DNA of 64,000 nt, from positions 46,598,332 through 46,662,331 of the forward strand of contig OZ024938.1 of NCBI GenBank assembly GCA_964017235.1. Direction: 5' to 3'. Positions 21,249 to 59,658 of the stretch are shown here, piece by piece. Both the position numbers and the translations under genes were made by a program. Below the pieces are notes generated by a model. That model did no database searches, was not told the origin of the DNA, and saw nothing but the letters and a program-made list of their open reading frames with translations. This DNA is from Sabellastarte sp. h YS-2021 (Eukaryota; Annelida; Polychaeta; Sabellida; Sabellidae). The number at the start of each line of letters is the position of its first letter. The stretch's first letter is position 1.

Positions 21249-21955
21249 CCCAGATAACATTCCACTGGTGACCCAACAGCTTATGGTCGGTAGATTTTGC
21301 CACTGTTGGCCTACCGGTGGTTTTTGGTTGTATAATTAGCAGTGTGCCATCGTTGGGCCAACGGTGGCTTTCCAACTAATCTTCATGTCTGTAGAATTTG
21401 CCACTGGTGGGCCACTGGTTGTTTTTGTTCAAGAATGCGCTGAGCAATAATAAGGGGTTTTGGGAAACTTAGTAAAAATTTATTCATAAGTGTGTGTCTA
21501 ATAATGAATTTTCAGTGAGCCTACAATTTTTAACTTACTATTTAACAATTTTAGACATACAAACAATATTATTATAATAAATTTACAATACAATAGTTGT
21601 CACTGGACATATTATAATTTTATCAATGAATTATGGAATATCACATTAGGACTCCCATCCATTATTTATGTACGACTGATTACATCATTGGTCATGTGAC
21701 TTATCATTGATTCCTTAGCTAAGATTTGACCAAATCCTGTCAGTCATTTGCCTTATCCACAAATGGCCACATAACTAAAGGCTGCAATCTGATTGGCTGA
21801 TGGTATTGCAGAATTTTAACCAGCATATTGCCACCGTTGGGCCAACATTGGCCAATGGACAAAAAGTTGGTAACCCACCAGTGGCAGCCCATGGTTGGTC
21901 AACTGATTTGTCGCTGGTTGCCCACCTTTGGGCCACCAGTGGACTGTTATCTGGG
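21249..21955. mobile_element. Inverted-repeat element with iterated CCACTGGTGGGCC motif
   Basis: The ends are CCCAGATAACATTCCACTGG on the left and its near-perfect inverse on the right (ccagtggactgttatctggg). Each end region holds several more copies of the gtgggccactggtgg / ccgttgggccaacg motif. The AT-rich middle has no coding frame. No transposase was found and no target-site duplication is clear. Confidence 0.75.
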
Positions 21956-24703
21956 TAGAGGCTAATTTGAGGCTCAATGTATTTCACATTTCACTAGTAT
22001 ACATGAGATTTGACAAGTGTTAGTAAGTGGGTATTTTTATTTAGGCAGGACACAATCGTCACAACATGGGCAGTCTTCAAAGCATGTAGTGGATTTCTTA
22101 AAAATGCATGGAAACCTGATACTAGCTCTCACATGTTATATAATTAGGGGTGAAAACGAGTCGGAATAGCTATTTGGGGTGGCTTGTTTTTCAGCATCCA
22201 CTACCTGTACTCACAAAGTCCATTTACAGAGTAATAGGCAGAAGGTTGTGAACCAAACTTCAATTGCAATTGCAAGTTGCTATATTGCATGCTGTGTTTA
22301 GCTTGCGCAACTCACATGATCCACAAATATAAAGTCAAGGCTGCACAATGGCTGTTTGTTAAAAGCTCCAAAAGTTCAATAATAAGTACTTTAAGTTGAA
22401 AAAATACAAGTTGCCATGATAGAGAACAGTGTGAACAGGTGAGGGTTGTCTAACGGTGACAATATTGGGAAGGCTGAACACATCTTATCAGGTAGTTCAT
22501 TCCACTCTTCTGCTGTATTGAAAGTGAATAAATTATTTAATGAATTTTTGAACCACAAATCGTTACCATCACCTTGACATCATCCGCAACAATGTTGACA
22601 GATATTAGAGGAAAGATAAGCCTCAAAATATTTAGGATAATCTTTTTGAAGAAATTTGAATTCACATTGAATTCAAATATTCAAGTGGAAGGACCAAAAA
22701 AAAAAAAAAAAAAAACATCATCTCTTCACTAGCACATTATGTATCGCAGAATCTACCTCCTCGACCAGTTCATCCAGAGAAGTTCTATAATTGGTTTGAT
22801 TTTGATTTCTTTTACATGTGAACTACATGAGTCAAGCAGACTGTGTTACTCCCTTTCTCTACTTTACTTTGATTGTCCCATTGGCTTGAACTTGACTGTC
22901 ATGTAATGGACTCCCAGTTCAACTATTATTTATTGGCTTAAAGCCAGTGGTATTGGAACAAAAAGCGATTACACTACATCATGGTCTCATTGTGACTTCT
23001 GAATAAACTTGATGCATGTATACTGTTTTATGTTGTGGCCAAATGCATGACCTTTGCATAAGCTGAAGTCAGCATTATGAGATAATGGTTTTAATATTCT
23101 TTTACTAATATGTGATTGAAAATTCCAAAAACTTTTTTTATTCATACAAGTTTCATCTGGGTCCGTTTTACACACCACTGGTTCTAGTTTCAGAACCTGA
23201 ATCCATGCAAAACTATTTTGTGCAGGTTGTATGAAAATAGATAACAAGTGTGATCAAAGAACCAGCTAAACCTTTGTAGCCACAGAATCCAATTGTAATC
23301 ATCCCGTGGACACTTGGCTTACAGAGGGAATAATGACTGACTGTAATAAACTACAGTTACACTGGTACCTTGACCTTACATAAAAATAAAATAATCTAAT
23401 AATGCTAATAATGCTAATCTTGTAATAAAAGAGGTTAATCCAGTTAACATTTTCTCTTTTCTATAATTAGGACATTTCAGATAAATTAATGTAATTTTGA
23501 AAATATACCTTTTTATTTCATGTGTTTTTGTCTACCCCACTTGGGTGGATCATGGAGGAGTGGCAGATAGTATTTTTTCACATTTTATGACATATCAATT
23601 TTTGAATTTGTACCCCGGAAATAGTCAACTGTTAAAAGGTGGATATTTCAGTTATGCTACTTACATTTAAAAAAAAAATTCAATTCCATTTTATAATTTA
23701 CCAACAAAACATATTTCAACCAAATTACACAGAAAAAAACACTACTTAATTTTTGTTTGACTTTAATCTTATGACATAACTCTGTATTAGTTTTTCTCAT
23801 AAATTTTAAAGGTGTTTTCCTTCATCTATGCATAAAGATTATACTTTAACGTATAACATTGTCTATTTTATGAAATTGGCAAGCCACAGTGAATAATTCT
23901 TGCCTGTTTTACAAAAATAGGCAATTTTTGAATGCTTTCCACTGTATCACTTTTGGCATTTTCGAACTAAAGTACATGAACTTGGTTTTATTGGTGTTCA
24001 ATTTAAGTGTGTTACAGATCAACAAGTTTTTCAAATGTAGAAGGAAGTTCTTCGAATCTTCAAAAGCAAAAGAGGCATTTTTGTTGAATATATCAAAACA
24101 ACCTGTGTATCAGTATAAAATAAAATTTGACACTTTACTAGTATATCAATGATCTTGCTAAGGTGTATAGGTCACAGTCAAAAGAGAAGAGGACCCACAA
24201 CAGAACCTGAAGACTGGACAAGAGTTTATAAAGGTCCGATAATGTAGAGCAAATTCCCAAATTCTGATAGCAATCAGAATTTAGCAGGAACTAAAAGACT
24301 TCAGTACAGAATCACCGACAACTAACTATGATGAAAGGCAGAGTCGACTAAGAAATGATATCAAAAGTGGTGATAGATCAAGTAGTAGGAGGGTAGGTCA
24401 TTTTATTTTCATGGACAGTAAAGTAGTCTTGCTTGAACGATCAGATTGATTGTCAGACTGATATTTATTGCATAAACCATGTACACCAACATGCATGGGT
24501 ATAACATGTTCGGCCATATTTTGATATGAAGCTCAACCCCAATACAAGATGAGAATTCTTCAGATTATGTTCAAAAACAAAGGTTTTCTTTATTAAGGAG
24601 AGTCGCATTAACTTATTAATCCTGTATAAATATATTAGTGATACTGAAAAAAATGCAAAGACTATGAATCAAAAACCATTTTCACACACATATATATGTC
24701 ACA
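21956..24703. other. Intergenic, mostly unremarkable
   Basis: An A-run at 22697-22714 and an unrecognised coding-like stretch at 22379-22565 (minus). Otherwise AT-rich DNA. Confidence 0.35.
22379..22565 (-). other. Coding-like stretch, unrecognised
   Basis: About 62 minus-strand codons read without a stop. The composition is protein-like, for example LFTFNTAEEWNELPDKM. No family, start or splice sites were recognised. It may be a decayed transposon or gene fragment. Confidence 0.2.
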
Positions 24704-24935
24704 GGCGAAATTAAAATCCAGGCGGGTTTTAAATCCGCCTAGGTGAAATCAAAATTGTAATCTCGCCTAGGCAAAATTAAAATTGTGATCTGCCCTAGGC
24801 AGATTTTAAATCCACCTAGACCAAATTAAAATTTTGATTTCGCCTAGGTGAGATTACAATTTTACAAGCTGATTTTATCAAATTTTAATCTCACCTAGGC
24901 AAGATCAATATTTTAATTTGGTCTAGGCAAAATTC
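24704..24935. repeat. Cluster of CCTAGG-centred palindromes
   Basis: About seven copies of a motif like cgcctaggcaaaattaaaatt in both orientations within about 230 bases. The core is CCTAGG or one base off, flanked by gaaatTAAAATT-type arms. The arrangement is mirrored about the middle. It is probably a small fold-back element. Confidence 0.65.
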
Positions 24936-26519
24936 AAATTTTATTTGAATTGTTTATGGTGGATTCCAATATTTGATTTAGTTGAAATGTAAATTAATAT
25001 AATGAAGTTAGTTAAACAATTATGCTTTATAAATGGGGTATTTGAAATAGACTCGCACTGAATTTTACACACTTAATGAGGCATTGGTGGAATGAATTTG
25101 TCTCAAGGTAAGTTTATATCCTAGGTTAGTAGGTTTTTACTAGGTTAATGTGAAACTGATTTAGCAATGCCATCATTTTAATCAATGTGTTTAAAGTCAA
25201 TGATATAATTTAACTTTTAGTTGTTCAAATATTGAGATATATTAACATCATTAATCTGGCTTTAAACTAGTTCATTTATTATTATTCCCCTTTTATTAGT
25301 ATTATTAATTCAAGAACAATTAACAGTTAGCTTTGTTTCAATTCTCCCCCATATCTTGCCCACCACACTGACAGCTGGCCACAGTAATTGCAATTGCCAG
25401 TGGTCTACTGCACATGTATTGCACAATAGGTCACCTGTAATAGGGTAGCCTCTTACTTTTAAATGATATTCTCAGGAGTAAGAAGCATTTACATTTAATC
25501 TTCAAAGATTTCTTTGAGGTGCACTTCCTCTTTTATTTATACGCAGGGGCCATTCAGTAGCTTTTAGCTATAATCTTCTAAGATTTTCTACAGAGACTCC
25601 ATTTCTTTTATTTATGCTCAGGAGTCATTCAGTAACTTTTACATATAATCCTCAGAGGTTTTCTACAAAGATTATTTTCCTTTTATTTGTGCTCAGGACT
25701 GAGTTGTTTCTTTTTATATCTATATTTCAATAAAACATTAATGGGACATTTATAACTGTGGAAATTTGATCAAAGGAGATAGTGTTGCTTTCATGTCAGC
25801 CACATGAGAATATAAAAGCTGGTCAAAATTCTGAGAAGTTATTATTCAAATCTTGCATGATGGATCAGAAAGAACAATTCTATGAGCTGCTGGAGAAGCT
25901 GATTTTCATCTTTAGACAAGAAGAAGAAGAACAAGTCCATCATCACCCAAGAGGTCTACAAGAAGATCCTGGAATGTCTGCAACTCAAGAAAGAGAGTCC
26001 TTGTGCTGGAGGTCCTAGCTTCAAATTTTAGTGCCACTAACACTTTTCACATTGATTTTAGAATGACTGCATTAATTCATTTTTAGTTTTGTTTATAGAT
26101 GTACAAAGATTTCATCTGATTCTTTTGTAACACTGCACAAATGTTATCTTAAAATATCTTAAAACATGTTCCGAGTCTTATCATGGCTGTTTTTCCCCAG
26201 CTAATTAAAGAAACTACCATCTTTGGCTTATGTTTATATATGAATTTAGCCGGAGTGTCATATGGGTATTCGTATTCCCTATGAATAATCACCACTATGT
26301 GGTTTATTGTAAAGGGTAAAAGAAATTAATTTCTCCATTGTTCGTACTAATAATTTAAAACAAATTGGTGAATCCTGACTCATAATAAGTAACATCTTTG
26401 TAAATAAGGCCCACTATCAAATCACAGGGGTATATTTCTCCAAAAGGCTACCACAGATATTATGGCTCAGCTTTACTGTCATTTATTGATCATAAACTCA
26501 TTTCTTGAGTATGCTCTGA
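24936..26519. other. Intergenic with tandem-like phrases
   Basis: The region 25440-25700 holds three diverged units of about 75-95 bp (ctcaggag.cattcagtaacttttacatataat-type phrases). A possible integrase fragment at 25857-26030 is listed separately. Confidence 0.35.
25857..26030 (+). pseudogene. Possible integrase-element N-terminal fragment (KRBA2-like), broken
   Basis: Short segments read MDQKEQFYELLEKL and IITQEVYKKILECLQ. They resemble the region before the zinc-binding part of KRBA2-like/Ginger-type integrases. The match is from memory and weak. It is a broken relic if real. Confidence 0.25.
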
Positions 26520-28920: not shown

Positions 28921-28927
28921 CGAATAT

Positions 28928-28985
28928 AAGAATAATAAGTGACTGTGTGCGGTGACTAACAGTTATGCTCAGTAACCTGCCTTAT
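28928..28985. repeat. Inverted repeat partner of 36289-36345
   Basis: About 48 of 57 positions match the reverse complement of 36289-36345, including aagtgactgtgtg and cagtaacctg. Probable left end of the DIRS-like fossil. Confidence 0.65.
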
Positions 28986-29095
28986 TTTTCTCATCAGAGG
29001 CTGAAAAGTTCATCCCATTTTGCCCTGAGGTACAAAAATCCTATCTGCCTAGAGCCGCTCACCTGAGCCTCTTTTGGGCTCTGATGAGAAAAATC
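28986..29095. repeat. Hairpin with 16-base arms
   Basis: The arms tttttctcatcagagg and ctctgatgagaaaaa face each other across about 75 bases, just inside the probable left end of the fossil. It could be the remains of its internal complementary region, or an unrelated hairpin. Confidence 0.5.
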
Positions 29096-32000
29096 TAGCA
29101 CATTTAATAAGTAAATTAAATTTTTAATAGTTAATACCCTATCCAATGGACAATTGCTTTACCGGTCGGTATGACCAGTCCCGCCAAACACCAGAAAAAG
29201 ACATCCTGTATATACTACCGACAGAACTGGTCATGGCGTGTGCATTTGCCAGGTGGCACCTTAGAGGCAGCAAAGGTCCTTACATCATGGACTTTAGCCT
29301 GATGCAGTGTGAGGGCCTCCTGATCAGAGAGCTCATAACATAGGATCACAGTCTGCTTGATCCATGAGGAAATGGTGGCAGGTGAGATGTCCTTATCAAA
29401 ACTTTTCTTGAAGGAACTCCTTGTTCTGCCTAAGATCTGAGGTCCTGTCCAAGTAATAGCGAAGGGCTCTGACTGGAGACAAGGACCTGTCACCCTTGAC
29501 ACTGGGGCTACACTATTTGGACCCTCCTTAGCCAGCTGGTTCTTGGATAAAAAGCTGGGTAAGGGGTACAAACACACCTTAGACCAGTCTGACTGGTGTC
29601 TGATGTTCTTATGTAACCAAGCATGGATCTCACTTCTGCGTTTACCAGAACCCAAGGCCAACAGAAAAACAGTCTTGAAGGTCAAGTGTTTTAGTGAGGC
29701 CTCGTTTAATGGTTCAAAGGGAGCCTTTGTCAGCTGGCGTAAAACCAGGGAGAGGTTCCAGGAGGGTATGCCCCTCCTGCCCTTGGGTCTGTCTCTATGG
29801 AAACTATCCAGGAGACGAGTGAGATTCTCATCTTTGCTGACATTGATGGGAAAGTTGCCCAACTTGTCAGCAATGGCTGACCTGTACCCATCAATGGTAC
29901 CTGGTTTCAACTTCCTGTCCTGAAACAGGTGCCCTGAAGCCCACCTGATTACTGAAGCACCACTTTGTAAAAAATGGTCCACTTTGCCTCATAGATGGAT
30001 CTGGTTGATCCTATCTTAGGAGCCTCAATTCGTGCTGCCAGGTTGGGCAGACACAGTGGAATCTGACTCTACATTGCCACTAGATCCCAGAACCAGGGCA
30101 TGTTGGTCCACCCCGGTGCAATCAGAATGATTCTGTTGCATGGGTAGTCCTGCAACTTCTCCACCACTTTGCCCAAGATGGCTGCTGGTGGGAAGGCATA
30201 TGGGTCCAGATCTTTCCAGGACAGACTGAGTGCATCCACTGCCCATGCCTGGGGGACTGGGACCGGTGACACAAACTGTGGCAGTTTGTTGTTGAACCTG
30301 GTGGCAAACAGGTCCACCTGAGGCTGGTGCCACTGGGAGCATAGAGCTTGGAACACCTCTGGGTGAAGGGACCATTCCGTTTGAATGGTCTGGCCAAATC
30401 TGGATAGGTTGTCTGCTATCACATTCAGCCGGCCAGGGATGTGTCGTGCTTTGAGAGTTACCTGTTTCCTGGTGCACCAGGCGGGATTCTCCACAGCAGG
30501 GCACACAGAGAACCCGAGTTTATCCCCCCTTCCTTGTTGATATAGGCTACCACTGTTGTGTTGTCTGTGGCCACCAGGACTATGTTGTTTGAACAGAGGT
30601 CTTGGAACTCTTTTAGGGCCAGAAAGACTGCCTTTAGTTCCAAGTGGTTTATATGCAACTTGCTTTCTGGAAGGGACCAGGTTCCCCTTGCAGTGCGCTC
30701 GTTTAAGTGAGTGCCCCACCATTCTTTTGATGCATCCGTAAATATCTGCAGAGCATGTTTTAGAGGGTGTCATAGTTGACCTGGTAGCACATTGCTTTCC
30801 TCCTTAAGTGGGGATTGGAGCGACCTGGGGACTGGTATCACCTTTTCTAGTGATTCTGGTACCCTCCAGTTGTTCTTCAAGTGCCACTGTACGGGTCTCA
30901 TATGAAGTCGACCCAGGTGGACTTGCTTTTCTGTGGCTGTCAGAAGCCCTATGAAGGACATGAAATGCCGGACTGGACACACCGAACCAGATAAATTGTC
31001 TGAATTTTGTCTATCAAGGGCTGCCAACGCTCTGGTGTGGGTCTGACCTTGCCCTCTTTCAAGTTGAACTGGTAACCTACGAAGTTGAAAACCTGTTTTG
31101 GATCCAGTTCTGACTTTTCCTTGTTCACCAGCAAACCTAGTTCTCGACAGAGCTACCAAGGTCTGTGTATGTTGGAGACAAGTTTGGTGGGATGTAGCTT
31201 TCACCAACCAGTCGTCTAGGTACTGGTGGATTCTTATACCCCTCTGTAAAACCATCAATTTTGTCTATCAAGGGCTGCCAACGCTCTGGTGTGGGTCTGA
31301 CCTTGCCCTCTTTCAAGTTGAACTGGTAACCTACGAAGTTGAAAACCTGTTTTGGATCCAGTTCTGACTTTTCCTTGTTCACCAGCAAACCTAGTTCTCG
31401 ACAGAGAGCTACCAAGGTCTGTGTATGTTGGAGACAAGTTTGGTGGGATGTAGCTTTCACCAACCAATCGTCTAGGTACTGGTGGATCCTTATACCCCTC
31501 TATAAAGCCATCAATTTGGCCACCACTGTGAACTCCATTGGTGCTGTGGACAGGCCAAAGGGTAGGGCTTTGAACTGGTAGGACCGACCCTGGATGTAAA
31601 CATGCATGTACCTCCTGGACTGACTGTGAATTGGTATGTGGTAAGTATGCGTCCTTGAAATCTATGGAAGTGACCACTCCTCCCGCCTGTAGGGAGGTTC
31701 TTATTGTGTCTGGGGTCTCCATTTTAAATGACTCTGTGTTTAGGAAGGTGTTTAAGGTGCTCAGGTCCAAGATAGGTCTCCACCGGTTGTTGGGTTTGGG
31801 TACCAGAAATAGCCGGTTGTAAAACCCCATGGAGTTTTGGTTTTCTACTGGTTCTACTGCATTTCTGTTTACCAGCTGACACAGGTCCTCCAAAAGGTTG
31901 AGATTTTTGTGAGGGTTGGCATAGCTGCTTATGACAGTTGGTGATCTTGTTAGGTTGGGTCTGAACCGGAAAGGGACGGTGTAGCCCTTGGCTGGTTTCT

Positions 32001-33753
32001 GTGAGAAAGTTGTAGGCATGCCACGACCTTTCTTTCCCTGTTGGCATTCACGTATTTGCTTCCAAGCTGGGATAGACGACTTCCGGTCCGTTTAATGAGA
32101 AGGTTTGTCATTGGAAGCATATGGATGGAAACGACCGGGATTCCTGTGTGACTGGCTAGACAAACGCCTCTCTTCACTTGTGGCCACTTCCTCTTCAGCC
32201 TTAATGAGAAGCTGCTCCAGGAAAGGTGACTGCAAATGAACGGGGGCAGTACGCAGTGCAGTGAGTGTGTCCTCTTTTACTCCAAGTAAAATACTCCAAG
32301 TAGCTGTCTCTATGCACAAAGGTGAAGTTTGCGACACTAATGAACACACCTACTGGCAAGTCCTGCATTGTCCTGGCCATGGCTTACCAGCTTGCTGCAT
32401 TTTTTCAGAGGACTTGCCCTTGCCTTTCACCATGTCCAAACTCTTGCATTGTGTAGACATCACATCCTGAACTCTAGTCAAACACCTTGACAAACTGGCA
32501 GCCTGATTGCACGTGACAGTCTTCTCCCTAGCTGCTCTTTCCCAGTGTCTTAAAATGTCCTGACTAAGGGGCCGAGAGGGTGGGGCAGCAGGTAAACTAC
32601 GTCTGGCCACCCTGCTGAATGCGCTATTCAGCTTTGCCAGTTCTGGAGACCAGGAAGACACAGTGGATACATCAGAGTCTTTTTTATCAGCATGCATGTC
32701 GTACAATCTAGACGACCTAGGTGGCTTGACAAACTTGTCCCTGAGAAGTCCAGCAGTTTCTGTGTTCCTGGAGGGGTAGCCTTCAGTGATGGTGAGATTC
32801 AACTTCTCCATCTTCCAGCAAAGCCAGTCGTCTACAGGCAATTTCACAGATACCTGGGAACCGGCAAAATTGTTATCATCTGAAGATGTAACACTGTCGA
32901 ATTCAGGAATCTTGTGCCAGCCCATGAATGACCTCACACCTCTGATGGTCTCTCTGTAACTAACTTCTAGCGCTAGAGTTCTTGGTCACCGGAATCATCT
33001 TTGTCTGGGGAGCCATACCGGAAGTTGTCATCAGCAGGTGAACCAGGCTCACTTTGCAGATCTTCCTCACTGTCAGACTGCACAGCACTACTGGTACCAG
33101 ATAGCAGTACCTCAGGACCCGCACCGTTCTCCCAACTTCTCATCTAGGTCCCTGAGTTCATCAGACCTGGGTTTGCTGCTGGATTTTGATTTCTTCCTGC
33201 TTGACTTGGGAGAATCGTCAATTCTTTTCTTCTCGCCAGCAGGGGTTTCAGACTTCTTAACTGTCTTCTCTCCGTCCACCCATCCCAACACACTGACCTG
33301 TGAAGGGTCCACAAGAGTGGGGATGGGGGAGGCAGAAACCTTCTTTTCCTTATTCTTCCTCTCTCTGTAGGTGGGGGTGGCAAGTTGAAGAATCTCCTCT
33401 GGGGTAAAGGCCTTGCAGATGGACAATCTCGTTTGAGGACACACGGATTGTCTCCAACCCCCTTCTCTCTCCATCTTGCGCACTTGAGGTAGCCATCAAA
33501 CAAAGCCATAATATGGCCACACGTGCCTTTCTTCTGTCCAAGAGATGACATAATGATCAGTAATACAGAAAAATTATGTAGAAAGAATTAAAAGTTCATA
33601 AAATGATTGAATTCGTTGTAAAACTTCAGAAACATTTCTCTGTAGAAAACATGTCTGCACACTCCACGCACCAAACGAAAAAGATGCTATGACGTCATGA
33701 TGTCTAGACAGGAAGGAAGTATGATGCGCCACCTAGTGAATGCACACTCCATG

Positions 33754-35136
33754 ACCGGTGTAGCATCAGATAATGTATCCCTCAAAAAGTGTGTGGGGAT
33801 ACAGAATATGCTAGGTGGGGCTGTCAGATTCTGTATCCCCTGTTAAATTCTGTATCCCCCTGTCATATTTTGTATCCCCTGAAGTTGGGCTAGTCCTATT
33901 GGTATTTCAGTCACATGTGTGTGTTGTTTTCTTTATTTTGTGATTCACAAATATATGTATATTGTATGTTGTACCTGTATGATCTTTGTTCTACCATTCT
34001 TTCGAACTTTATTCCTTTAACCTCTGGTTAAGTGACTAGCTAAAAGTATTAATTGGGCATTGAAGTAAGACTCTTTAATGTGTTTTGAAGGTGATAGTTT
34101 AAATGTTTAACTGTTTATACACAAAAGTTTTTATTAAATCAGAATTTTCAAATGTTTAAATGCTAAGTTCTTAAATAGACAATAGACAATTACCCATCAG
34201 GGTTGGGTCTAGTACATTTGTACTAATAGAACATAATAAAAAAGTCAATTTTTTATGTGTGTATGACTAAATTGATCAAACTAACATGTTTGATTTATTT
34301 ATATTTTCATACTAAAATATTTAAAAATTTAAATAGGAAATTTTATAAGTAGGTTCACCCATAAAATCATCCTGGATAATTGTGTGGCCCTATTTGTATT
34401 TTACCCAATAAAGGTTTGGCAGAATTAAGCCTCATTATATTTAGAGATAACTTTGATGTTGATTTGTTTCACTTTATGATTTGAGGTGTTCCCTATTGTA
34501 TACTCCACCCAACCCAAGTGAAACAAATCAACATCAATAGAATATTAAGACAATAGACACAGATCCAATTAAGAAATCACCTCAATGAATGACAAATAAA
34601 TCAACATGAAAGGAATATATAATAATTTTCTTTTATTTGCACATGTTTGTTAATATATAATAATTTTCTTTTATTTGCACATGCTTGTTAATAGTTTTCA
34701 TTATATTCAGCATAAAATCATTATTGAATTTAATTAACTTAAGTTGGCCTGATATGTTTTCTCCCATCTTAAGATAGACTGACTCCTAAGTTGTGCTCCC
34801 AGATCTATAATGTATTTTTATACAATATGTTTTAAATTGTTTGGGTCTGTTGCAAAATAAGCTTTTACAATGTGTTAAGAACAGTGTGTCTTAGGACAAC
34901 TCAATGATTATATCTTGTTTTCATATAATTGGCCTTAATGTAACTTGTTTTAATCTCCCTCCCCAGGGCCACTTCAAAAGGATACAGGTTTTGATGGGGA
35001 TACAATATTTGATTGTCAAATAGTGCACCCCCTTAATCCCGCTATTGTTGGGGATACAAAATATTCTGTATCCCCTAAAAGATCAAAGAGGGGATACAGA
35101 ATTTGATGGGGATACACAATTTCATGTTACACCGGT
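33754..35136. mobile_element. Inverted-repeat element 1 of a pair, iterated TGTATCCCC motif
   Basis: Outer ends are accggtgtagca and its inverse tgttacaccggt. Each end carries four or more copies of a motif like attctgtatcccc, inverted between the ends. The AT-rich interior includes an inverted pair (tgatgttgatttgtttcact at about 34452 and its inverse near 34520) and a direct duplication at 34614-34690. It has no coding frame and is non-autonomous. Confidence 0.8.
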
Positions 35137-35140
35137 CCTG

Positions 35141-36212
35141 CCGGTGTAACACAAGATAATAACTCTCCCTTTGATCTTTAGGGGAGTAATTATCTTGCAA
35201 GTAATATTTTGCACCCACAAACAATAGAGGGATTATGGGGGGTCAAAATATAGCAGAAAGAGCTGCAAGATAATCACCCCCTGCTAGATGGTTACTCCCC
35301 TCTCTGTTAAAAGAGACAATAGGACAATACACTAGTGTGTTTATTTAGTCAATTGGGCAGTTGTCAATACATGCATATCAGTAACAATGCCTAAGACTAT
35401 TTGGAGGTGTTTTGGGGTGATACTTACATATTTATATGTTTAAAAGCAAAATGATTAACTTAATCACAATTTTTAAGTGTTTACATGCTAAGTTCTTAAA
35501 TAGATAGTTTCCCATATAACCTAGCCAAAAGATGCAACTTTATATGGATATCAGAGTGTTGTAGCACCAAATTCATCAGATTGATTTCTTTGATTTAATT
35601 ACATTTTCATATTAATTTGCATTGACTTGTGAAAATATAGTTTTCTTAATAATTCTTTGTTAAATAATAAGGTTCAACTATAGAATCACCACAAATATGT
35701 TTGCCCTGTTAAATGTTTAATTTGAGTAAGTCTCATTATATTTATATATTACTTTGATGCTGATTTGTTTCATTTCATGGTTTGACTCTATTTTCCTAAG
35801 ACATTATATAAAATAATATAATAAATGATGTGAATATTATTATTAATGTCAAAAGGAATCTCAACAAAAAGGCATATTTCTGTATAAGACTTGGTGCAAT
35901 AATTACTTCATTAGTCATGCAAGAATATAAAATCAACATAAATAAATAATAAATAAAAATTTAATGCAACATGTGCTGTGCTTGGCCCCACATCACTATT
36001 AAATAGAATGCAAGGGTTCCACTACAAGATAATCCCCAACACAATAGTAATCACTGATTTGGGGAGGGATTCCAAATCTTGCAAGGGCGGGGGGGGGGGT
36101 GGGGGTGGGGGGTGGGGGTGGGGGTGGGGTGTCAAAATATCTCAACCCCCATTGCAATATTTTACCCCCCTAGTGACAAATATAGGGGAGTCATTATTTC
36201 ACGCTACACCGG
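35141..36212. mobile_element. Inverted-repeat element 2 of a pair, iterated GGGGAGTAATTATC motif
   Basis: Ends are ccggtgtaac and its near inverse gctacaccgg, as in element 1, four bases away. The interior is clearly homologous to element 1 (catgctaagttcttaaatag at about 35486; tgatttgtttcat near 35760). The end-region motif is different: ggggagtaattatcttgc and inverses. No coding frame. Confidence 0.75.
36085..36131 (+). repeat. G-rich tract, possible G-quadruplex
   Basis: Nine or more runs of three or more G separated by single T, inside the right end of element 2. Confidence 0.75.
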
Positions 36213-36288
36213 TAGTATGTACAGGACGTCTTTTTCTGGCGTTTGGCGTTATTTTTCGAAATATTGCTATACAATTTTTTGAACAATA

Positions 36289-36345
36289 TAAGACAGGTTA
36301 CTGAAGGTAACTGATAGTCAGTACACACAGTCACTTGTTATTCTT
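36289..36345. repeat. Inverted repeat partner of 28928-28985
   Basis: Probable right end of the DIRS-like fossil, beyond the nested elements. Confidence 0.6.
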
Positions 36346-36664
36346 ACCAAATATAGCTACCTTGCTCTGATTTGCACCAAAATCCTTTACATAAATATTT
36401 GGTATTCATAAATCACAAAAACATGTTAGAAAAATGGCTGACAATACCAGATCCTTTTCTACAGAGAAAATCGGTACAGGACTAATTAACTTAACAAATT
36501 AACTTACTGACCAGTATATTGGCTACCAAGGACCCGTGTAAATTTTGGAGTTATCATATTTTGAACTTCGATTGTGGTTTCAGATTTTAACAGAAATTTA
36601 TCAATTTTTTTTTTGTTTTTGACACATAACAAATGCTTTGGAATTTTGAGGATCACATTAATTA
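36346..36664. other. Intergenic, nothing recognised
   Basis: AT-rich, no gene or repeat structure seen. Confidence 0.4.
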
Positions 36665-36942: not shown

Positions 36943-37746
36943 TACACGGGCGACATCAATTTGGGACAGTTTTATCCTGTTTTTACATTTTTTTGCCACT
37001 TATCAAAATAAACGTATAGTTTCATGCATATTAATAAACAGAAGAGCATCAACATTTCATTGTGTGCTAATCAATTTTTCTTTTTCTATGTTTGTAAAAG
37101 CCGAAATTAGACAAAAACTGAATAATGTACCCAAAACAAAGGGTCATTGATTTGGGACACTTCTGGGAAACCCCCAAATTACAATCCACTAAATTGAGAC
37201 ATTCACTTTCATTGGTCCCCAATTTTTTGTAAATAAAAGACAAACATCAGTGACTTGACTTTCATCGTGTATGAGCCATATAAAGTGTATAAAATGAGCC
37301 AAAAAAGACATTTATTATAAAAGTACTTTATGGGAGATGAGAATTTTGGCTGCCATATTGGAATAGTATTGTATAGTCAACTAGAGTAGTAACAGCCTTG
37401 TTTACAATAAATATAAAATCACTCAAACTTAATTATATGTGTCCAGATAGAAGATACAATAAAAATGTTTAGTGGTTATTGTTTTGGACTGACCTTGTAC
37501 TTTGGTGATAACACAAGGATATTTTCCATTAGATGGATATGGAGAAGGTGTGGTATTTTCTTTTCTATAAATTGTTGCATATAAATGCTAAATGTACAGT
37601 ACCAGTGGGATATAATCACATGTATAAATGAGGTAATACTTCTGTATTCATTGTTTATGGTGCCAAGTCAAACAAACAGTATATTATCTCCAAATGTAAA
37701 AAGTGTCCCAAATTGATGACCGTCCCAAATCAATGCCACCCGTGTA
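36943..37746. mobile_element. Inverted-repeat element with iterated CATTGATTTGGGACACT motif
   Basis: The left end tacacgggcgacatcaattt is mirrored by the right end ggcattgatttggga / cacccgtgta (inverse). Further copies of the motif lie at about 37145 and twice near 37700. The middle is AT-rich and non-coding. No clear target-site duplication. Confidence 0.75.
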
Positions 37747-37764
37747 CTTGATATTATCAGTATA

Positions 37765-38009
37765 TACTGCCTTGCTACCAATTATCGCCGGTTACCAATT
37801 ATCGCCACCGGAAAATAAAACATCCATATTTATGTAATGGCCACATATTTTGAAAGCTTTTCATTGTGCTTCTGCTGTATTCACTGTTGAAACAGTTTTA
37901 CCTTATTTGCTAGACTTATCCCATGGGATGTACTTTTGGTCAAGTTATGTCTATTTGAATTTTGTTTGGCGATAATTGATACCCGGCGATAATTGGTAGC
38001 AAGGCAGTA
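37765..38009. mobile_element. Small inverted-repeat element with iterated TACCAATTATCGCC motif
   Basis: Near-perfect 44-bp inverted ends, each made of two motif copies: tgctaccaattatcgccgg then taccaattatcgcc. It is about 245 bp long, with no coding frame. It lies 18 bases from the previous element. A solo end survives near 20224. Confidence 0.8.
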
Positions 38010-38192
38010 CTTTCGTTTCCCAAATAAAGACCTCTATTTAAAGTATGAAAAGACCGATTACTTTGTATTTACCATGCTTCGTGTCACCTAGAAGACGTCA
38101 ATAATTCCTCTTTTCAGCCCAAGCCTTGGTTATCGACATTGAAAAGTGAAATCCACTATTTAGATCAATTTGAGGCCGGATATTTGCAGGCG

Positions 38193-38307
38193 GCCCCAGT
38201 AGCTCAGTCGGTTAGAGCGCGGTACTTATAGGCAGTATACAGTCTGTTTCTTACAGATGACGCGCTTGGCAATGCCGAGGTCGTGAGTTCGAGCCTCACC
38301 TGGGGCA
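38193..38307 (+). tRNA. tRNA-Ile-TAT: tRNA-Ile(UAU) with a 41-nt intron
   Basis: Acceptor stem GCCCCAG pairs perfectly with CTGGGGC, with discriminator A at 38307. D stem GCTC/GAGC, anticodon stem CGGTA/TGCCG with a T-G pair, T stem GTGAG/CTCAC around TTCGAGC. Anticodon TAT is at 38227-38229. The intron at 38231-38271 begins one base after the anticodon, the standard eukaryotic site, and this isoacceptor often has an intron. The mature length is 74 nt. It reads AUA codons. Confidence 0.95.
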
Positions 38308-48459: not shown

Positions 48460-51439
48460 CTGGAAAGAATAAAGAATATGGCTTTTACTATATCTTCATA
48501 AATTATTTTTTTAGAATTACCTAACTATATAAATGTGTACAACTCTGATTCTGGTTATTACAAAAGAAAATTGTCTTTTGTACTCACTGGCTCTACACTT
48601 ATCTTTTAACAAAAAATCAACACTTTAATTTGACAAGGTATATTATGTTTTATTGGCAGAGTTATTATTGATGCTATCAAAGGTTACCAATAATTATGCA
48701 CACAGAAGGAATTGTTGCAAAGGCAATTAGAGCCAATATGTCCAGAATAAGCTTTTTGGGGGAACTGGTACCCCCAAACCTCGAGAATGTATATAATAAC
48801 AGTAAAGCTTTCCTGATTCGGGAGTTATGTGAATGTATGGTTATAAAGAAATACAAGAAGAAAATGTACACTGAAGATACATATATAATATGTATTGGCT
48901 GAGAATAGTGGGCCTTAGACTTAAAATAGAAAATTTAGAAAATCCCACAATTATGTATGTGGTCACCATAAGTCATATCAAGGTCCCACATATAGTGTAC
49001 AAAGGAAGTGTATATTTTCACTGGATAGGTGCTGATATATAGATATTCTGGCCAAAATGCCATGCTTATTTGTGTGACCAATGTTATAGTTTTGGGTGTA
49101 AGGTTTTGGGAGTTCAAGGCGGAGAAAAAGGTATTTCATTATGAGGTGATGTGTGTCATAGGTAGCCTCAGGAGATGCAATATTGTTGACAGTGATGTAC
49201 ACTTATTAGCATACTGACAGCTGGGTTATAGCTACCACAAGTTTGCCTTGTAAGTTTCTTTTCATGTTTACGACATGTAGTAAATCTGCTAAAATATGGT
49301 GTAGCTTTTGTTTTTTGGAAACACTGCATGCTATATATATTTTTTTAGAAAATGTTGCAAATTTCAATATTAGTTTTATAATTTTTACAACAATGGCAGA
49401 AAATATACATGATGGGGCAAATCGGCTTTGCACCATATGTATCTGTGAACATATTTTAAGAGAATGGCTACATTTTTTTCAGTAATTTACTGCATATGTA
49501 ATTTTCCTGATTAAATCTTGTGTTTGAGAGCACCAGTTACCCAAGGGCAAGAGTTGACTTTTAATTTATGAGAAAAAGATGCATATCACTTCTGTATTAT
49601 ATAGTCATAAGTGCCAACAGTTCCTTCAATCAGCACTAGCAATGTTTCTTTTTACACATTTGAGGGACTTTTGAATAAGTTTGATTTAACTATGACAACC
49701 AAAAGACATTGAATCTTGGTCTTATCTTAATGACTCAGCTTGAGTTCATCAAAACGCCTGCCAAACTGTTGGTAATTGGCATAATTTCCATATCTCTGTG
49801 CTTCATTATATAATCTCCATTTCCTTGCAAACCTAAACCAAGAATATTGTTGGTATTGCTATCAGTTGGACAGCAAGATTTGACTTGATTTGTAACATGA
49901 CTATTTCATATTTATCCTTATTACCAAAACAAGTTTTAAAATTTGAGCAGAGGTGCAGATATGGGGGAGCAGATAGCATATACAAGACATATATATCCCA
50001 CTAACCTCAAACACCTGAAGGAGTAGAGCATATAAAAATATGGGATGTAAAAATTCCTGGGAGCTACTCAGTTTCCCCTTACAGTCAGACTTGTACCAAG
50101 ACTTCTTGGCTTGAAGTTGGTTCCAGAGTTATTTCTGCTTATCAACAACTAAATGCACTATATACCTGTGCTGAGATATTTACTGGATGGCTGCAAATTA
50201 GTGATTTCCCGGGGTAAGCCAGTAATTCTACTCCTTTTATCCATTATCGTAAATTGATTGTTACGGCTTTTTAACGCTGCCCCAGCATATCCAGGCTCAT
50301 GGACGCCCAGATACGGGTAGCCTTTCTAAGGCGTACAAAAGATAACAAGAAAGATGGCAAACATGTGTTTCATGTAAAGACTGTCACCTCTGAGGTTCAA
50401 ATCTTATTCTAGTTACCTCTGATAAGGAGGTTTATTTGAATTGCGTGTATCTGTTTGCATGTTTGTTTGAAACATAACTATCAGGTGACCATATGCTTGA
50501 CATCCGAACTGGAGGATTATAAGGCACACCATCCAAATTGTAACGCACAAATCAGAAAGTCGTAAAACATAATGGAGTTGTCACCAAGGAGATCATCGGT
50601 GTTCGGTTCTTAGAAAAACTAGGGATGGAAAGACTTAAAGCCAGTGAAGAGATAGACCTTGTGCAAGGTCCTTCCTTAGTGTGCTATGATTCTATGAGAG
50701 CCTTTCCCTCCATAACTCTACTTCCACTGAGAGTGCAAAATCCAGACTGTTATAAAATGCACTCATTTATTGTCTCAAAACCCCCGCCAAAGTAGAGACT
50801 TGTGAGCAAGTCTATTGAAGAGACTTTAAGGTTGGAAACTAATTTTAAAGGCTTTTTTATCCTTGCACACAGAAGCAATATTGGAGGTATTGGACCTTGG
50901 CGGAGGAATGTACCCTCAGAGTACTCTTCCTAAATATGTGGGATGCACTGGGAGTCTGTCCAGATAGGACTTTGGTCATTGAAAATATTGATACTATCAC
51001 ATAATACTTAACATGGTCAATTATAATATTTTTTTGTTGCGAAGAAATATATTCTTTGATCATATACTTCAAGGAATCATTTAAGTATTCGTGTTATTTA
51101 GCATTTGTATTTGAGTTCTTTAAATCTGATAAAACTATATAAAATGGTTAACATTCGATTATTATTAAGGATTTGACTGTGTTAAACTGCACTGTACCAA
51201 AAAAAAACGTTTAAACGACTTTCTCAAGGTATACTATAAAACCGATTGGATAAAAACCTATCATAAATATTTAGCCATGGTGATGTGTAAGTAAGTAAAA
51301 GCCTGGTTTCAAAGTGACACTGTCTTGATATGAGCTTTGCCAATCTAATTATGTTAAAAATCTCAAAATAAATATGACTGCAAATCCTGTGTCAGACTAA
51401 TGATTATTCCCAAAGTCGCCTATCTCTGAAATCGGGAGA
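48460..51439. other. BAMBI upstream intron or 5' region
   Basis: Mostly unremarkable. A relic beginning acctctgataaggaggttta at about 50416 resembles one end of the repeat at 46545. Confidence 0.35.
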
Positions 51440-52702
51440 CGGAAAAAAACCCTCACAAAATGAGCTCTCAGGAGAAAACCCCTCAGGAGAAAACCCCTCA
51501 AAAGTCTCCTGTGGAGAAAACCCCTCACCCTATTTTGGGGCTTGTGGAGAAAACCCCTCATGTTATTTTCAGGCTTGTGGAGAAAACCCCTAAACTTAAA
51601 AAGCCCTCATTTTTTATTTAACCCTATATTTTTATTTAACTTGTACTCAAGCACCCCATCCTATATTCTATTTTCAGGCCTGTGGATTGGAACTTTGACA
51701 TTTTAAATTGAATTCAAATGTGATTCTAATTTTAAAAAAATGTTGTCCTTTGTTGTAAAATCTGAAAATATATACAAAGAATGCTTTTCTTTGAAATGTG
51801 CTCAGGATTGCACTACTCAGGTGATTGATCACTTTGAATTGAAGATGAATATTATGTTTTGGTCTATTGTTTCAAAACTTAAATCAGTGGACAGAATTAA
51901 AACTGTATACATTAGCATATATAAACAATCAAACATGTCCCCTATTGTGTCACTTTCAAGTATAATATAAAAAAGAGGGGTTTATACTTGTCCCTTTCAT
52001 AATTGCAATTAAACTGTTTAGCCCACTATTCTAGGGCTATCATCAGGCAGTATAAACTCTGGCATATCAGCTTAACTCTGGCTTGTCAGTAATAAGGTTT
52101 GAGACACTGCATTAACAGTATGGCTTCACTGGCAGTGAGTGGATAGAAATAAGTAGAAGCTATTCTAATCCTCAAATGACCCTAATGCCTAAGTTGTTAT
52201 GTACAATTGTATTTATGTGCTCATTCAGTGCTGATATATTTCATTCCATTTAAATATTATATTCATGTACTGTCATTTATATGCTATATACTTATAATAA
52301 AACCTTGCACACATTTAGCTGAATAAAGAGTTTTATGAAGCTTAAATAAAGTACATCATTGGTTTTTCCCCAAATTTGGCTTAAAAAATAATATTGCCCA
52401 GTATTGCCCACTTTTCAAAGTGCTATGTGATTTTAATGTGATTTTAAAGGTGTGTATGACTTAATAAAATTCTTCTTTGTTATACATGATTTTCTATGTG
52501 TAAATGAATGAATATTCCAAATTTCCAAAATGAGGGCTTTTTATAAAGTTGAGGGGTTTTCTCCACAAGCCTGAAAATAACACGAGGGGTTTTCTCCACA
52601 AGCTCCAAAATAGGGTGAGGGGTTTTCTCCACAGGAGACTTTTGAGGGGTCTTCTCCTGAGGGGTTTTCTCCTGAGAGCTCATTTTGTGAGGGGTTTTTT
52701 CC
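51440..52702. mobile_element. Fold-back element with about 175-bp inverted ends, GGAGAAAACCCCTCA motif
   Basis: Left end 51440-51613 and right end 52527-52702 are near-perfect inverses. Each holds about five copies of gtggagaaaacccctca with linkers such as ttattttcaggctt. The middle of about 910 bp is AT-rich; a 76-codon open frame there (51740-51970, plus) is unrecognised. No transposase. Target-site duplication not clear. Confidence 0.85.
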
Positions 52703-53248
52703 TGGATTCCTGAAATCTGTCTATTTTTTGCACCAGTCTTAGCAATCATTCTGTTTATTGAAAGGTTGCTACCTATTCACTCTTCTACCGAAATGACTTT
52801 GCGGATTCTAAAAACCGTCTCCAAATGAGCACTGTTTTCAGAGGACAAAACCTAATTTTCCTCACACCAAAGAGATTGGTGATTGATGATGTTTGAGATA
52901 GCATTGTTTCAAGTCGCCCCAATGTCTGGCAGGGGACACTTGACACTTCAACTAGAAAAAGTCGTGTACATAAGGTCTGGCCTAACCTTGGTCAGAGAAC
53001 ACGTTGAAGTGACCATACAACTGGCCTGCACACGGCGCATAGGGTTAGTACTGTGATCAATCCTGTACTTCTCTAATACCAAATAGAATGAATGAACAAA
53101 AATAAGTGCATGTAAACCTCTTAGCTTTCTGTGGTAAAAACTGGAACCAGATATTTCACACAGTTGTGTTTACTGAACCCCTCGTGATGATTACAAAAGG
53201 AAAAGAAAGTCAAAGTTGAGTTCTTAAGTCCTGGTCAACAACCAGGTA
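52703..53248. other. Intergenic or intron, nothing recognised
   Basis: No gene or repeat structure seen. Confidence 0.4.
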
Positions 53249-56144: not shown

Positions 56145-56352
56145 TTTCAACACTGTACAGGTCATATTGCGAGGGGCAGTTGGAAGGGCAGAGGAAACCA
56201 GTACATACAGTTCATCAGGGTTTCTGTACTGTAAACTGCTTACCAGCAGCAAGCAACTATTAGCATTCCCACTTGAGACCGTGCCGGGAACCGAACCCTG
56301 ACCTCAGAGGTGGGAGGTGAGAGTGTTACCACTCTGCCACCGTGGCCCCTCA
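56145..56352 (-). mobile_element. tRNA-derived SINE
   Basis: The head on the minus strand has A box tggcagagtggtaacactc and B box gggttcggttccc. The core follows (agttgcttgctgctggtaag, tttacagtacagaa, actggtttcctctgccc). Best-kept head of the four copies. Confidence 0.75.
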
Positions 56353-56536
56353 GTTTGGTCTCTAAGACAGAAGGAGTATTCATTCTTTGTTTACATACAA
56401 TATCTACATTCAATATTAACATACAGGAGACCAATAGTCTGTTCATTCTAAAAAAAAACTTAAGGTTCGTAAGCATCAGAGGGTACCTGGAGACATGTTA
56501 TAACCCATATAAGGTCTTATAACCATAAACTACATT

Positions 56537-56770
56537 AGGAGCACTCAGAGAGTGCAGACCTCTGCTGCCAAGGCCAAGCGAATCCTTTTACAAAATCCTG
56601 GATCCGGAATTGGTTTTGAAACATTCCCAAAATTGAATCACTTCAATGCTGGACCTAGACCCACATATTGTGAAAATCTGATATAAATCTGTGAAGTAGT
56701 TTTCGCAATTGTGCTAACAAACAAAACATAACCCAAAGATCATGTGACCTTGTTGGAGGTAATTATCTGT
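56537..56770 (+). mobile_element. Short interspersed repeat, diverged
   Basis: Opens gagcactcagagagtgcaga then cctctgctgccaaggc, and closes with aacaaacaaaacataaccc and gttggaggtaatt. Layout is like the repeat at 46545. Confidence 0.45.
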
Positions 56771-56799
56771 TGTGGCATGGCCCATATAATGTATTGTAA

Positions 56800-56876
56800 G
56801 TAAATCAATCACTTAATGATTCGATCAATCAATCAATCGATTGGTCAGTCGGTCAATCAATCAATCAATCGATGTC
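56800..56876. repeat. ATCA/TCGA simple repeat
   Basis: Run of aatcaatcaatcgatt-type tetramers with a few substitutions. Confidence 0.8.
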
Positions 56877-58774
56877 AATTTTTGTATGACACTTTAAGCC
56901 AAATGGTAAGGCTATAATTTTCTCTTGAAGACTGCCAAGACTAACCTATCAACCTCGCAGTGTAAAAGAAAGAATGAAGTTGGAGGGGTCAGAAAGAATG
57001 AGGAATATTTTTAGAAACGAGACTATATACTACTCTGTATTCTGAAGCCTTTTGATCTCAGGAGTCAATAACACTTAGTCATATTTACAAAGAAAGAATG
57101 AACAAAAAATCCAATTATTTATACATATTACAGATAGGGGTGTCTTTTTAAGGAAAAAAATACATCCATTGAGTTATCTGTCATCTGATTTGACATACCA
57201 AAACGTCTACTATATATGACAGTTTGGCTCCTTGGTGGTTACGCCAGAGAATATAGTGCGGTCATTTTTGTCTACTTTGGTTGGAGTTTCATAAATCATT
57301 TCCCATGAAAATAAAACAAAAAATATCAACAAGAGAAAGCTGGATGTTTTGTCTCTAATTAGGACACAGGTCGAGAGGTTTACTGTTTGCAAGAGGAAAT
57401 TAATGTCAAATTGATATAATTTAACGTCTGCACAGTCTGTGTTACATGTCCACCTTTAGTCCCCCCCCCCCCCACCTTTCAGGTAACAAAATACCATTAA
57501 TAAGTTTAAAGAGGCAATTTTCTACTGAGATATAAGTGCCTCTTTCTACCAAGTTTTAACTGTACTACACTTATCAATGAGAAGTAAGGGGTAGTGGTTA
57601 TTTACCTGTTTACAACTCTGTCTAGTGACTAGACATTTAAATCATTTTGCACATAAAAAGACCGCGGGCAGAAAAAAAACTCAGGCAGATTGTATCTTTT
57701 GTAATATTATTGGCCCTCTCCGACAGCACGTCGACTGTGAGAGCCCATCATAAGGCGATTAATAAAATATTAATTTGTCAAAAGAGGACACAAATTGCAA
57801 TGAGCTTTTATACTATGGCCACAGGAGACAGTCGTAAAATGGATTTATGCCCTTGTCATAAAACCACAATGGCTCGGTTGAGATCTCTTCAAATATACAT
57901 GATCGTTTGTTAATTTTCCTTTATCAGATGCTGTCACAAGGAATAATACTGTTACCTAAAAATATAGCGAGACTTCAATTTAGAATTGTTAAAGTTGGTT
58001 TTTATCTTTGCTAAACAGGGGAGCATCAATTTGGGCTACCATGAAATTGAGTTTGTACTAAGCCCAAGTGAAGAGAGTGGTATTTGGATGTCTGTTTAGT
58101 ATTCATATAGCTCATGTATCTCAGATATGATTGGCTAATACTCTAACAATGTTAATTTCACAGTCCGACAAACAGATCATCTGTGTCATTTTAACAGCAG
58201 ACTGAGCCTAACAGCTTTCCACAACATGGTAAAACTGTCAAATAATAAACCAAAAAAGCTAATTAAATGGGATTTTCTGGTTTACAAATTGTGATAAACA
58301 ATTGCAATTCTTTGAATATACTCGTAAAGCAATAATGTTCAGAGTTTCATGCTGAATTTTTAAAATATATGTGGGTTCAAACCTGCCTGACCAACGAAAA
58401 GATTCTCATTAAATTAACTACCATTAAAACAACCCTTCCAACACTGGCTAACCATATTTGGCAGACATCTGTGCAACTCTCACATGCTAAATTTCTATGC
58501 TTTGCCGCATGACAGACTCATCCAATTTCCAAGGCTCTTTACTTTCAAGTGGCATGACATTTTTTTTCTGTTTCCATTTGGGTAGAACCAACTCATTAAT
58601 GCTAATCACTGTAATTCAACACAGGGATTCGCATTAGGCAAGTAATTACAAGTTTAAAGTATCACAGAGGACATGGGGACGACCATGTGACATCTTGCTG
58701 TCCACCAGATACTGTTTCTAGATAGAATTTCATGGAGACAGGAAACTGAAGCTAGCCTGGAAAAAGACTCTGCT
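56877..58774. other. Intergenic or intron, nothing recognised
   Basis: C-run at 57461-57473. The 60-codon minus-strand frame at 57210-57392 has a hydrophobic stretch but no fitting splice donor for BAMBI exon 1. Confidence 0.35.
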
Positions 58775-59007
58775 AATAATAATAATATTTATTTATTTAT
58801 TGCTTTACCTTGCGTCAAACAGCCAGGGGCATAACTCAACGGGTAGTTTACAGGTGGAGAAACCAGTGCGCACTAGTTGGTCAAGATTCTGCACTGTAAA
58901 CCACTGGGCATCAGCAAGTAACTACCAACTTTCCAACATGAAATCTCCGGGCCGACATTCGAACCGGCAACCTTAGAGGTTGAAGGCAAGCACTCTTACC
59001 AACAGAA
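58775..59007 (-). mobile_element. tRNA-derived SINE with ATAA/ATT tail
   Basis: Minus-strand head: A box tggtaagagtgcttgcc, B box gccggttcgaatgtc. The core follows (gttacttgctgatgcccag, tggtttacagtgcagaatc), then gtttctccacc and a tail of ataaataaat and att repeats. Confidence 0.8.
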
Positions 59008-59031
59008 TAATAATAATAATAATAATAATAA
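59008..59031 (+). repeat. (AAT)n microsatellite
   Basis: About eight aat repeats abutting the SINE head. Confidence 0.85.
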
Positions 59032-59451
59032 CAACATTCCTTTCTAAAGTCTTGGTGATGCAACTTTTGAAGTATGTCAGTCCAAAGTATGACAAAAGTA
59101 TAGGGAGAGTTGTATTTATATGTTCTACTAATGCACTGCTTCAAAACTACTGTCGGAAGGAATGTTAATGTAAAGCATTATCTTTCTGTTTATTTTTAAT
59201 ATTTCAAAAAATAAGCTTTTCCCACCAGATAAAGGAAATTTTTTTTGTTAAAAGACAAGAAATGAGGTGAAATGAAGAAGGGCACCCCTTTTGGTTCATT
59301 CGTATTCATAAAATTGGGGTTATTAGCATGGTAAATACTCATCGGGGTATTAGAGTTTTGAAACAAAAGTTTCTAATCCAACTTATGGTGTACATAAAGG
59401 TATGTCTGGATCCAACTGAATCAGCTGTTAATTTAAGGGAAACGGTGTACG
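59032..59451. other. Intergenic, nothing recognised
   Basis: No gene or repeat structure seen. Confidence 0.4.
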
Positions 59452-59658
59452 GAAAAGTTCCCACCCGGTAAAGTTCCCACCCGGAAATGTTCCCACCCAA
59501 GAAAACTAAAGATTAATGAAAACACCAACTTCATTTATCTATCATGAGTAATTAATTTTTTTAATGTGGGAACTTTTCCCCCCCTTAAACCTTTGGGGTG
59601 GGAACTTTTCCAGGTGGGAACTTTTCCGGGTGGGAACTTTACCGGGTGGGAACTTTTC
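59452..59658. mobile_element. Small fold-back element with iterated GTGGGAACTTTTCCGG motif
   Basis: Near-perfect inverted ends of about 46 bases: three copies of gaaaagttcccacccggt-type motif on the left and four inverse copies on the right. Total about 207 bp. Similar phrases (aagggaaac) lie on both sides at 59436 and 59668 but do not abut the ends. Confidence 0.85.

Follow-up and report, generated by a model that had tools for sequence, protein, structure and literature searches.

Small non-coding elements with arrays of short motifs at their ends in a Sabellastarte genome represent about four kinds of DNA transposon

Introduction

Transposons whose ends are rows of a short motif have their closest described counterparts among Mutator-like elements (MULEs). 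In Aedes aegypti, 10 of 12 MULE families with long terminal inverted repeats carry short subterminal tandem repeats, and the end of Muta1 holds nine copies of a 12-bp unit with spacers of 3-4 bp; Muta1 and other MULEs of this species make 8-9 bp target duplications, encode a transposase with FLYWCH and MULE domains and have many non-autonomous derivatives, which share mainly their ends (PMC5225508). Tm1, a Mutator/Foldback element of root-knot nematodes, has unequal 7-bp motifs outside its inverted repeat, GGA, tandem units of 13-15 bp, a 9-bp duplication, miniature copies and a FLYWCH-MULE (Phantom) transposase; the length of its arrays is variable, and a purine-rich motif comes after them (PMC3169594). 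Here we describe seven small elements with arrays of short motifs at their ends, named A, B, b, c, d, e and f, in a stretch of 64,000 nucleotides (the window) from the annelid Sabellastarte sp. h YS-2021 (assembly GCA_964017235.1, contig OZ024938.1, here C19:46598332-46662331).

Other described systems resemble individual elements of the window. Ginger1 has a 4-bp duplication of CCGG or CCGT, TGTNR ends and inverted repeats of 40-270 bp, and non-autonomous copies of it are known (PMC2836005). ITm elements (Tc1/mariner and relatives) duplicate TA (PMC10045372). In the VANDAL elements of Arabidopsis, the MULE-encoded protein VANC binds a short motif arrayed in tandem, and the motif varies between related families together with the protein; VANC is an anti-silencing protein, however, and VANDAL arrays lie in non-coding regions, whereas the arrays described here lie at element ends (PMC5735166).

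Seven elements with arrayed ends

The seven elements are real transposon copies with ends built as rows of a short motif. All had been proposed in an initial annotation of the window, and all are present, with slightly shifted coordinates. Allowing two or three mismatches, we scored 9 units in A, 5 in B, 4 in b, 4 in c, 12 in d, 8 in e and 7 in f. Dinucleotide shuffles contained on average 0.03 to 0.18 units, and for every element the observed count was reached in 0 of 300 shuffles, in a test that was lenient, since the scored units were derived from the same elements and four of the tested stretches lay 1-5 bases off the final ends. Searches of the genome (1.786 Gb, 647 contigs), in which the motifs recur throughout, are stronger evidence. 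The end motif of c gave the highest count among the families searched (1,154 matches on the plus and 1,169 on the minus strand, 2,323 in total, with up to 2 mismatches) and the core of e the lowest (45 and 51, or 96); the A/B-type end motif was found 313 and 314 times, the left end of b 86 and 88 times, its right end 75 and 89 times, and the end motif of d 167 and 165 times (up to 3 mismatches). Controls for all of these gave 0 and 0. The end motif of f gave 148 and 118 matches (266), with 1 and 3 (4) in the control.

The AT-rich, non-coding middles claimed in the initial annotation are borne out in the interior stretches measured, which have 21 to 35% G+C and no stop-free run of more than 87 codons. 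Its picture of the ends, two to five units at each and facing opposite ways, was right in that arrays lie towards both ends. There are two units at each end of c and three and five at those of e; however, d has six and six, b has one and two with another inside, a single unit was scored at the right end of B, and unit orientation is mixed at both ends of A and at the left ends of B and f.

Four types of target duplication occur (CCGG, TA, 8-9 bp and possibly AT). Rather than being seven independent inventions, the elements sort into about four kinds of DNA transposon, of which some were known before. The many families of the initial annotation were thus an overcount: A and B form one family, and d and e one group. 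The ends of all seven look alike, as they would if one superfamily had diverged at its ends, but a CCGG empty site, perfect 8- and 9-bp duplications and TA in 8/8 paired b copies are incompatible with one another, which makes a single superfamily hardly credible. The elements are not fragments of one known superfamily with ordinary ends, an outcome that the initial annotation had allowed for. Nor are these arrays without fixed ends, as it had also allowed: duplications lie directly outside the ends in 7/12 copies of d, 5/9 paired copies of e and 8/8 paired copies of b.

The reading that we favour, with a probability of about 0.82, is that the elements are non-autonomous cut-and-paste DNA transposons mobilised in trans by about four kinds of transposase, with the array units as putative binding sites. 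It is supported by the recurring ends and target duplications, by copies across the genome, by the empty site of A and B and by a transposase-coding relative with the ends of d.

Elements d and e as miniature MULEs

Unequal 7-base ends, GGA, units of 14-16 bases, an 8-9-base duplication and FLYWCH make up a MULE layout that is already described for Tm1 and Muta1 (PMC3169594, PMC5225508). As in Tm1, the unequal ends of d, GGGAGAC and GAATCCA, are followed by units with GGA. Among 12 copies read, the window copy included, seven have a perfect 8-bp duplication, and one, in which an end is changed, matches over 7 bases; in two the ends are intact but there is no match, and two have no recognisable end. 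One locus, L092, carries both d ends with 2.35 kb between the array ends, a perfect 8-bp duplication (GATTATAG) and an uninterrupted frame of 449 codons with a Pfam MULE domain (E 1.2e-7). Judged by these features, d is a miniature MULE, and the genome retains a transposase-coding relative with its ends. The transposases were described as absent in the initial annotation, which does not hold for d; the search for an autonomous partner that it proposed succeeded for d but yielded none for the CCGG, TA and AT types, where searching was limited.

Element e is likewise classed, from its sequence features, as a miniature MULE. Nine of 11 copies, the window copy included, could be paired, and their 9-bp duplication is perfect in four, has one mismatch in one and three mismatches in two, and is lacking in two. 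In a sister family (L117/L118/L133), both ends (GAATCCCTGACAAGTTCCC and GGTGTACGGACAAGGTCCC) carry the 10 outermost bases of e, the unit differs in 3/16 bases, and the 9-bp duplication has one mismatch; its transposase, in L133, matches MULE at E 2.5e-11 and, upstream, FLYWCH at 4.2e-6. Both d and e resemble Muta1 and Tm1 in their duplications, and Tm1 also in the unequal end motifs, GGA and tandem units; a FLYWCH-MULE transposase, as in Muta1 and Tm1, is seen in MULE relatives. The two elements differ from both in the sequence of the units, from Tm1 in that of the 7-bp motifs and from Muta1 in having fewer units per end, about six in d and three to five in e (PMC5225508, PMC3169594).

The number of units is nearly constant between copies. 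It is 5-7 at both ends in 10/11 fetched copies of d, the remaining one (L097) having five and two, and 4-5 at both ends in 9/11 copies of e; such counts are partly selected, as copies of d were collected by array pattern and those of c by a two-unit pattern.

The protein of L092 has at least 96 matches in the genome. An exact MULE parent of e was sought among them and rejected: the 96 e ends lie within 12 kb of a match in only two pairs, in one of which the e end points away, while the other is a complete 859-bp e copy that ends before the gene. Two e-type miniatures (C8:21334037-21335471 and C5:100549348-100550135) stand no more than 1 kb from MULE transposase genes of other families; a shared insertion preference is possible.

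Flanks of 0.6-1.05 kb were read for 10 MULE relatives. In eight, an array is present whose units, 15-16 bases long, start with GGA or AGA; it lies on both sides in three of these and on a single side in five. Arrays of other units occur in seven relatives beyond L117/L118, GACAAAAAGAAACC-type in three and GGACAAAAAGTATCT, GGACAAAACCCCGGA, GGAAAAAAGGCCTTGT and GGACGTTTCGGCCAC in one each. Pfam recognised FLYWCH in all five upstream stretches of relatives submitted, which were preselected from eleven given by motif scan. The catalytic D, D, E and the C/H pair are kept in 10/10 aligned proteins (L092 and nine relatives, with L136 and L139 as near-copies among them).

A CCGG-duplicating family with arrays

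Elements A and B both start with TGTA[AG]C, each has CCGG on either side, and their CCGG copies stand 5 bases apart. Contrary to the initial annotation, which saw no overall sequence in common, they share their ends and interior stretches (78% over 115 bases and 86% over 59 bases). On this evidence, A and B are subfamilies of one TGTAR-end, CCGG-duplicating family. All 20 A/B-type loci have CCGG at both ends, although the search pattern itself demanded it. Removing A and B and keeping CCGG predicts the sequence CTCCATGACCGGTCCTGCCGGTAGTATGTACAGG, which has one exact match and 1,656 matches when up to 3 mismatches are allowed (811 on the plus and 845 on the minus strand; control 0/0); over the 34 bases compared, it is the predicted empty site for two insertions at once. 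Both insertions lie in a degenerate DIRS-like repeat.

The ends TGTAG and TGTAA agree with the TGTNR of Ginger1, as does the CCGG duplication, but the inverted repeats appear shorter, about 24 imperfect bases by eye and then arrays, against 40-270 bp in Ginger1, the account of which does not contain the word 'subterminal' (PMC2836005). Five long CCGG-type copies (L001-L004 and L144) were considered as parents of the family and rejected, their extra length being other repeats: the insert in L001 is satellite-like, judged by repetitive frames, those in L002, L004 and L144 are reverse transcriptase, and L003 holds a Harbinger gene between two C-type elements (members of a third subfamily, C). Further long pairs of CCGG-type ends lie at C1:24623887 and C4:14599390.

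The stretch 202-7252 of L003 has the look of a composite transposon, with a PIF/Harbinger gene pair (MADF and DDE_Tnp_4) between two complete, inverted C-type elements. These frames, and a DDE_Tnp_4 scrap in L071 just under the curated cut-off, would suit a reading of A and B, and of f, as PIF/Harbinger-type miniatures, which for f was examined at L071 only. However, the A/B/C ends and motif are missing from 29/29 other Harbinger copies (about 1.5 kb each side), so the gene in L003 is a chance neighbour of the CCGG elements and Harbinger was rejected as the driver of A and B. Moreover, the C-type elements on the two sides in L003 are each complete, with both ends of their own, and A and B duplicate CCGG as opposed to the TWA of PIF/Harbinger (PMC4482050). 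We consider a PIF/Harbinger origin very improbable.

Subfamilies of the CCGG family differ jointly in their terminal site and their interior units. In the outward direction, this site reads GGGATACATTATCTGATG-CTACA in A and GGGGAGTCATTATCTYGCG-YTACA in B, and the interior units are of GGATACA type in A and of GGAGTMA type in B. The ATAC-type site stands at both ends of 5/5 A elements, with 7-10 GGATACA and 0-1 GGAGTMA inside; the AGT-type site stands at both ends of 13/13 B elements, with no GGATACA and 2-5 GGAGTMA. All three elements read of subfamily C have 6-9 GGATACA and no GGAGTMA, and in each copy one end is GGGGATACATTATCTGGCG and the other the variant GGCATACAGAATATGGCG. The subfamilies are told apart by GATACA in A and C versus GAGTCA in B, and by TGATG/TGACA in A versus TGGCG/TGGCA in C. 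A position that separates C from A has G in the terminal sites of C and in 13/13 of its interior units scored, and A in 12/12 in subfamily A. In total, the subfamily of the ends matches that of the interior units in 21/21 elements (A 5/5, B 13/13, C 3/3), which were picked by their ends and not by their interiors.

Such arrays might instead be minisatellite-like by-products of slippage, or of expansion in folded intermediates as the initial annotation had also suggested, having no role in binding and being private through drift and homogenisation. Several arrays are indeed direct tandem copies, and homogenisation within such an array would likewise lead its units to change in concert. Against this, the unit number is nearly constant in copies of d and e, within the limits of partly selected counts, and in the CCGG family the terminal site, which lies outside the tandem row, has changed along with the units. 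We regard the by-product explanation as unlikely.

TA-type and possible AT-type elements

TA stands on both sides in all eight paired copies of b among the 12 examined, in a search that demanded TA at the right end only; 4/11 fetched loci were unpaired, and the length is 796-800. In c, TA stands at both ends in 10/11 copies (9/10 loci and the window copy), with TA demanded by the search pattern itself. It is this duplication that b and c share with ITm elements (PMC10045372).

Four long copies (L140-L143) were rejected as parents of b, being b copies that hold other DNA, identified in part. In L140, a TA-duplicating element (3242-3468) with ends CTGCTTCCCTGCATAAGTTGGCC and two CATAAGTTGGCC-like units per end is nested in b. 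Uninterrupted b sequence serves as its empty site and shows the TA duplication, as in ITm elements, and its layout resembles that of c. In L142, a 2.4-kb relative of f (506-2934; ends CCCAGATAGCAAGAC) is nested in b, and uninterrupted b shows a clean 2-bp AT duplication.

The target duplication of f itself is possibly AT. The dinucleotide precedes 9/24 f ends, against 9.2% expected (P 0.0002), and the other 15/24, the window copy included, do not fit it. An assignment of f to ISL2EU was rejected, as the A/AT/T target and usual GG ends of that group contrast with T/AT/G in L142 and with f ends that begin CCC. L071, which contains one complete f-type copy and two partial ones, was rejected as a parent of f.

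Coordinates and other features of the window

Table 1. Positions of the seven elements and of the repeat that hosts A and B (window coordinates)
Feature	Element	Span	Strand	Description
f	707 bp	21249..21955	.	Unit CCACTGGTGGCC; ends CCCAGATAACA; possible AT duplication, which the window copy does not show
DIRS-like repeat		28927..36346	-	Degenerate; hosts A and B; inverted arms; similar to the element at 9594-15908
A	33759-35131	33755..35135 with CCGG duplications	.	Ends TGTAGCATC.. and TGTAACATG..; unit GGGGATACARAAT, 9 copies, mixed orientation; inside the DIRS-like repeat
B	35145-36208	35141..36212 with CCGG duplications	.	Ends TGTAACAC.. and TGTAGCGTG..; unit GGGGAGTMATTATC; family of A
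b	36945-37744, 800 bp	36943..37746	.	TA duplication; unit CATYRATTTGGGAC; ends CACGGGCGAC / CACGGGTGGC
c	37767-38007, 241 bp	37765..38009	.	TA duplication; ends CTGCCTTGCTACCAATTATCGCC; two units at each end
d	51434-52709	51426..52717	.	Miniature MULE; ends GGGAGAC and GAATCCA; six units GGAGAAAACCCCTCA at each end; 8-bp duplication CTGAAATC
e	59444-59666, 223 bp	59435..59675	.	Miniature MULE; 9-bp duplication AAGGGAAAC; ends GGTGTAC and GAATCCC; unit GGAAAAGTTCCCACCC, 3 and 5 copies

The repeat that hosts A and B and the one at 9594-15908 are related, with inverted arms on the minus strand, and are DIRS-like by reading. The element at 9594-15908 has a reverse transcriptase domain (E 1.9e-18), and no reverse transcriptase match was found in the frames of the other. 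The same tandem repeat of about 147 bp lies on either side of the first DIRS-like element, at 6093-6517 and 16486-17484. A compact palindromic array at 24704-24945 has a 28-base unit with the core CGCCTAGGC. The possible additional members that the initial annotation had listed, at 1981, 24704 and 26520, were covered by reading of the window sequence and stay candidates. On the minus strand, a frame at 42919-43581 matches Pfam BAMBI_C (E 1.7e-16) and would be an exon of a receptor-decoy-like membrane protein. The stretch at 38192-38306 reads like an intron-bearing tRNA gene; ARAGORN, run in bacterial mode, gave none.

Discussion

If the elements are mobilised in trans, as we propose, the transposase would bind the array units and cleave at the terminal few bases. 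For the MULE group, this would mean that the units are recognised by an N-terminal FLYWCH finger and the ends cut by the DDE domain. Joint loading of the enzyme by several sites might explain why arrays persist, and the need for site and reader to change in step might explain why they stay private. The view of the initial annotation that the motifs are binding sites for different transposases fits the four duplication types and the MULE genes between matching array ends; binding itself we infer from those genes, from the near-constant unit number in copies of d, from terminal and interior units that differ together, and from the direct binding reported for the VANC proteins of plant MULEs (PMC5735166).

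Several observations weigh against this reading. No Gypsy-integrase-like transposase, the kind that marks Ginger1, was recognised in the five long CCGG-type copies, where no search aimed at integrases was run. Limited searching tied no transposase to the TA, AT or CCGG types; for b, none was seen by eye in four long copies, and three frames from three of them had no Pfam match. An N-terminal FLYWCH was not recognised upstream in L092 by motif scan, and two of the 10 MULE relatives (L127/L128 and L129/L130) have no array of GGA or AGA units in the stretch read. For the MULE group, it is not established that units and transposases diverged together: the correlation of their distances is weak and not significant (Spearman 0.50, with 350/5000 permutations as high; 0.40 and 686/5000 after removal of one duplicate family). 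Among the CCGG elements, matches to the empty site extend over 34 bases, the length read, one B-type word (GGAGTMA) occurs inside 3/5 A elements, the variant site (GGCATACA) stands at one end of every C copy, and the joint difference of terminal site and interior units, seen in three subfamilies, amounts to about two events.

The MULE layout has precedents. Arrays may be less common at ends of the CCGG, TA and AT types; a search of titles and opening lines of abstracts, among open-licence papers only, showed no description of them, Ginger-type ends included. The less expected part is that a CCGG family also bears arrays, with terminal site and interior units differing jointly. It is conceivable, if on balance doubtful, that transposons of at least three unrelated transposase groups acquired end arrays of private sites independently, and that such an array switches as one unit, terminal and interior sites together. 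If so, array switching would offer transposon lineages a general means of re-keying themselves and of escaping cross-mobilisation by sister families.

A puzzling pattern thereby resolves into groups of transposons whose parts can be tested. This one genome has at least seven MULE families that differ in array unit but have related transposases, a natural panel for the study of site choice by FLYWCH, and to them is added a CCGG-type family with subfamilies that differ jointly in terminal site and interior units. Annotating such arrays as simple repeats would miss these families.

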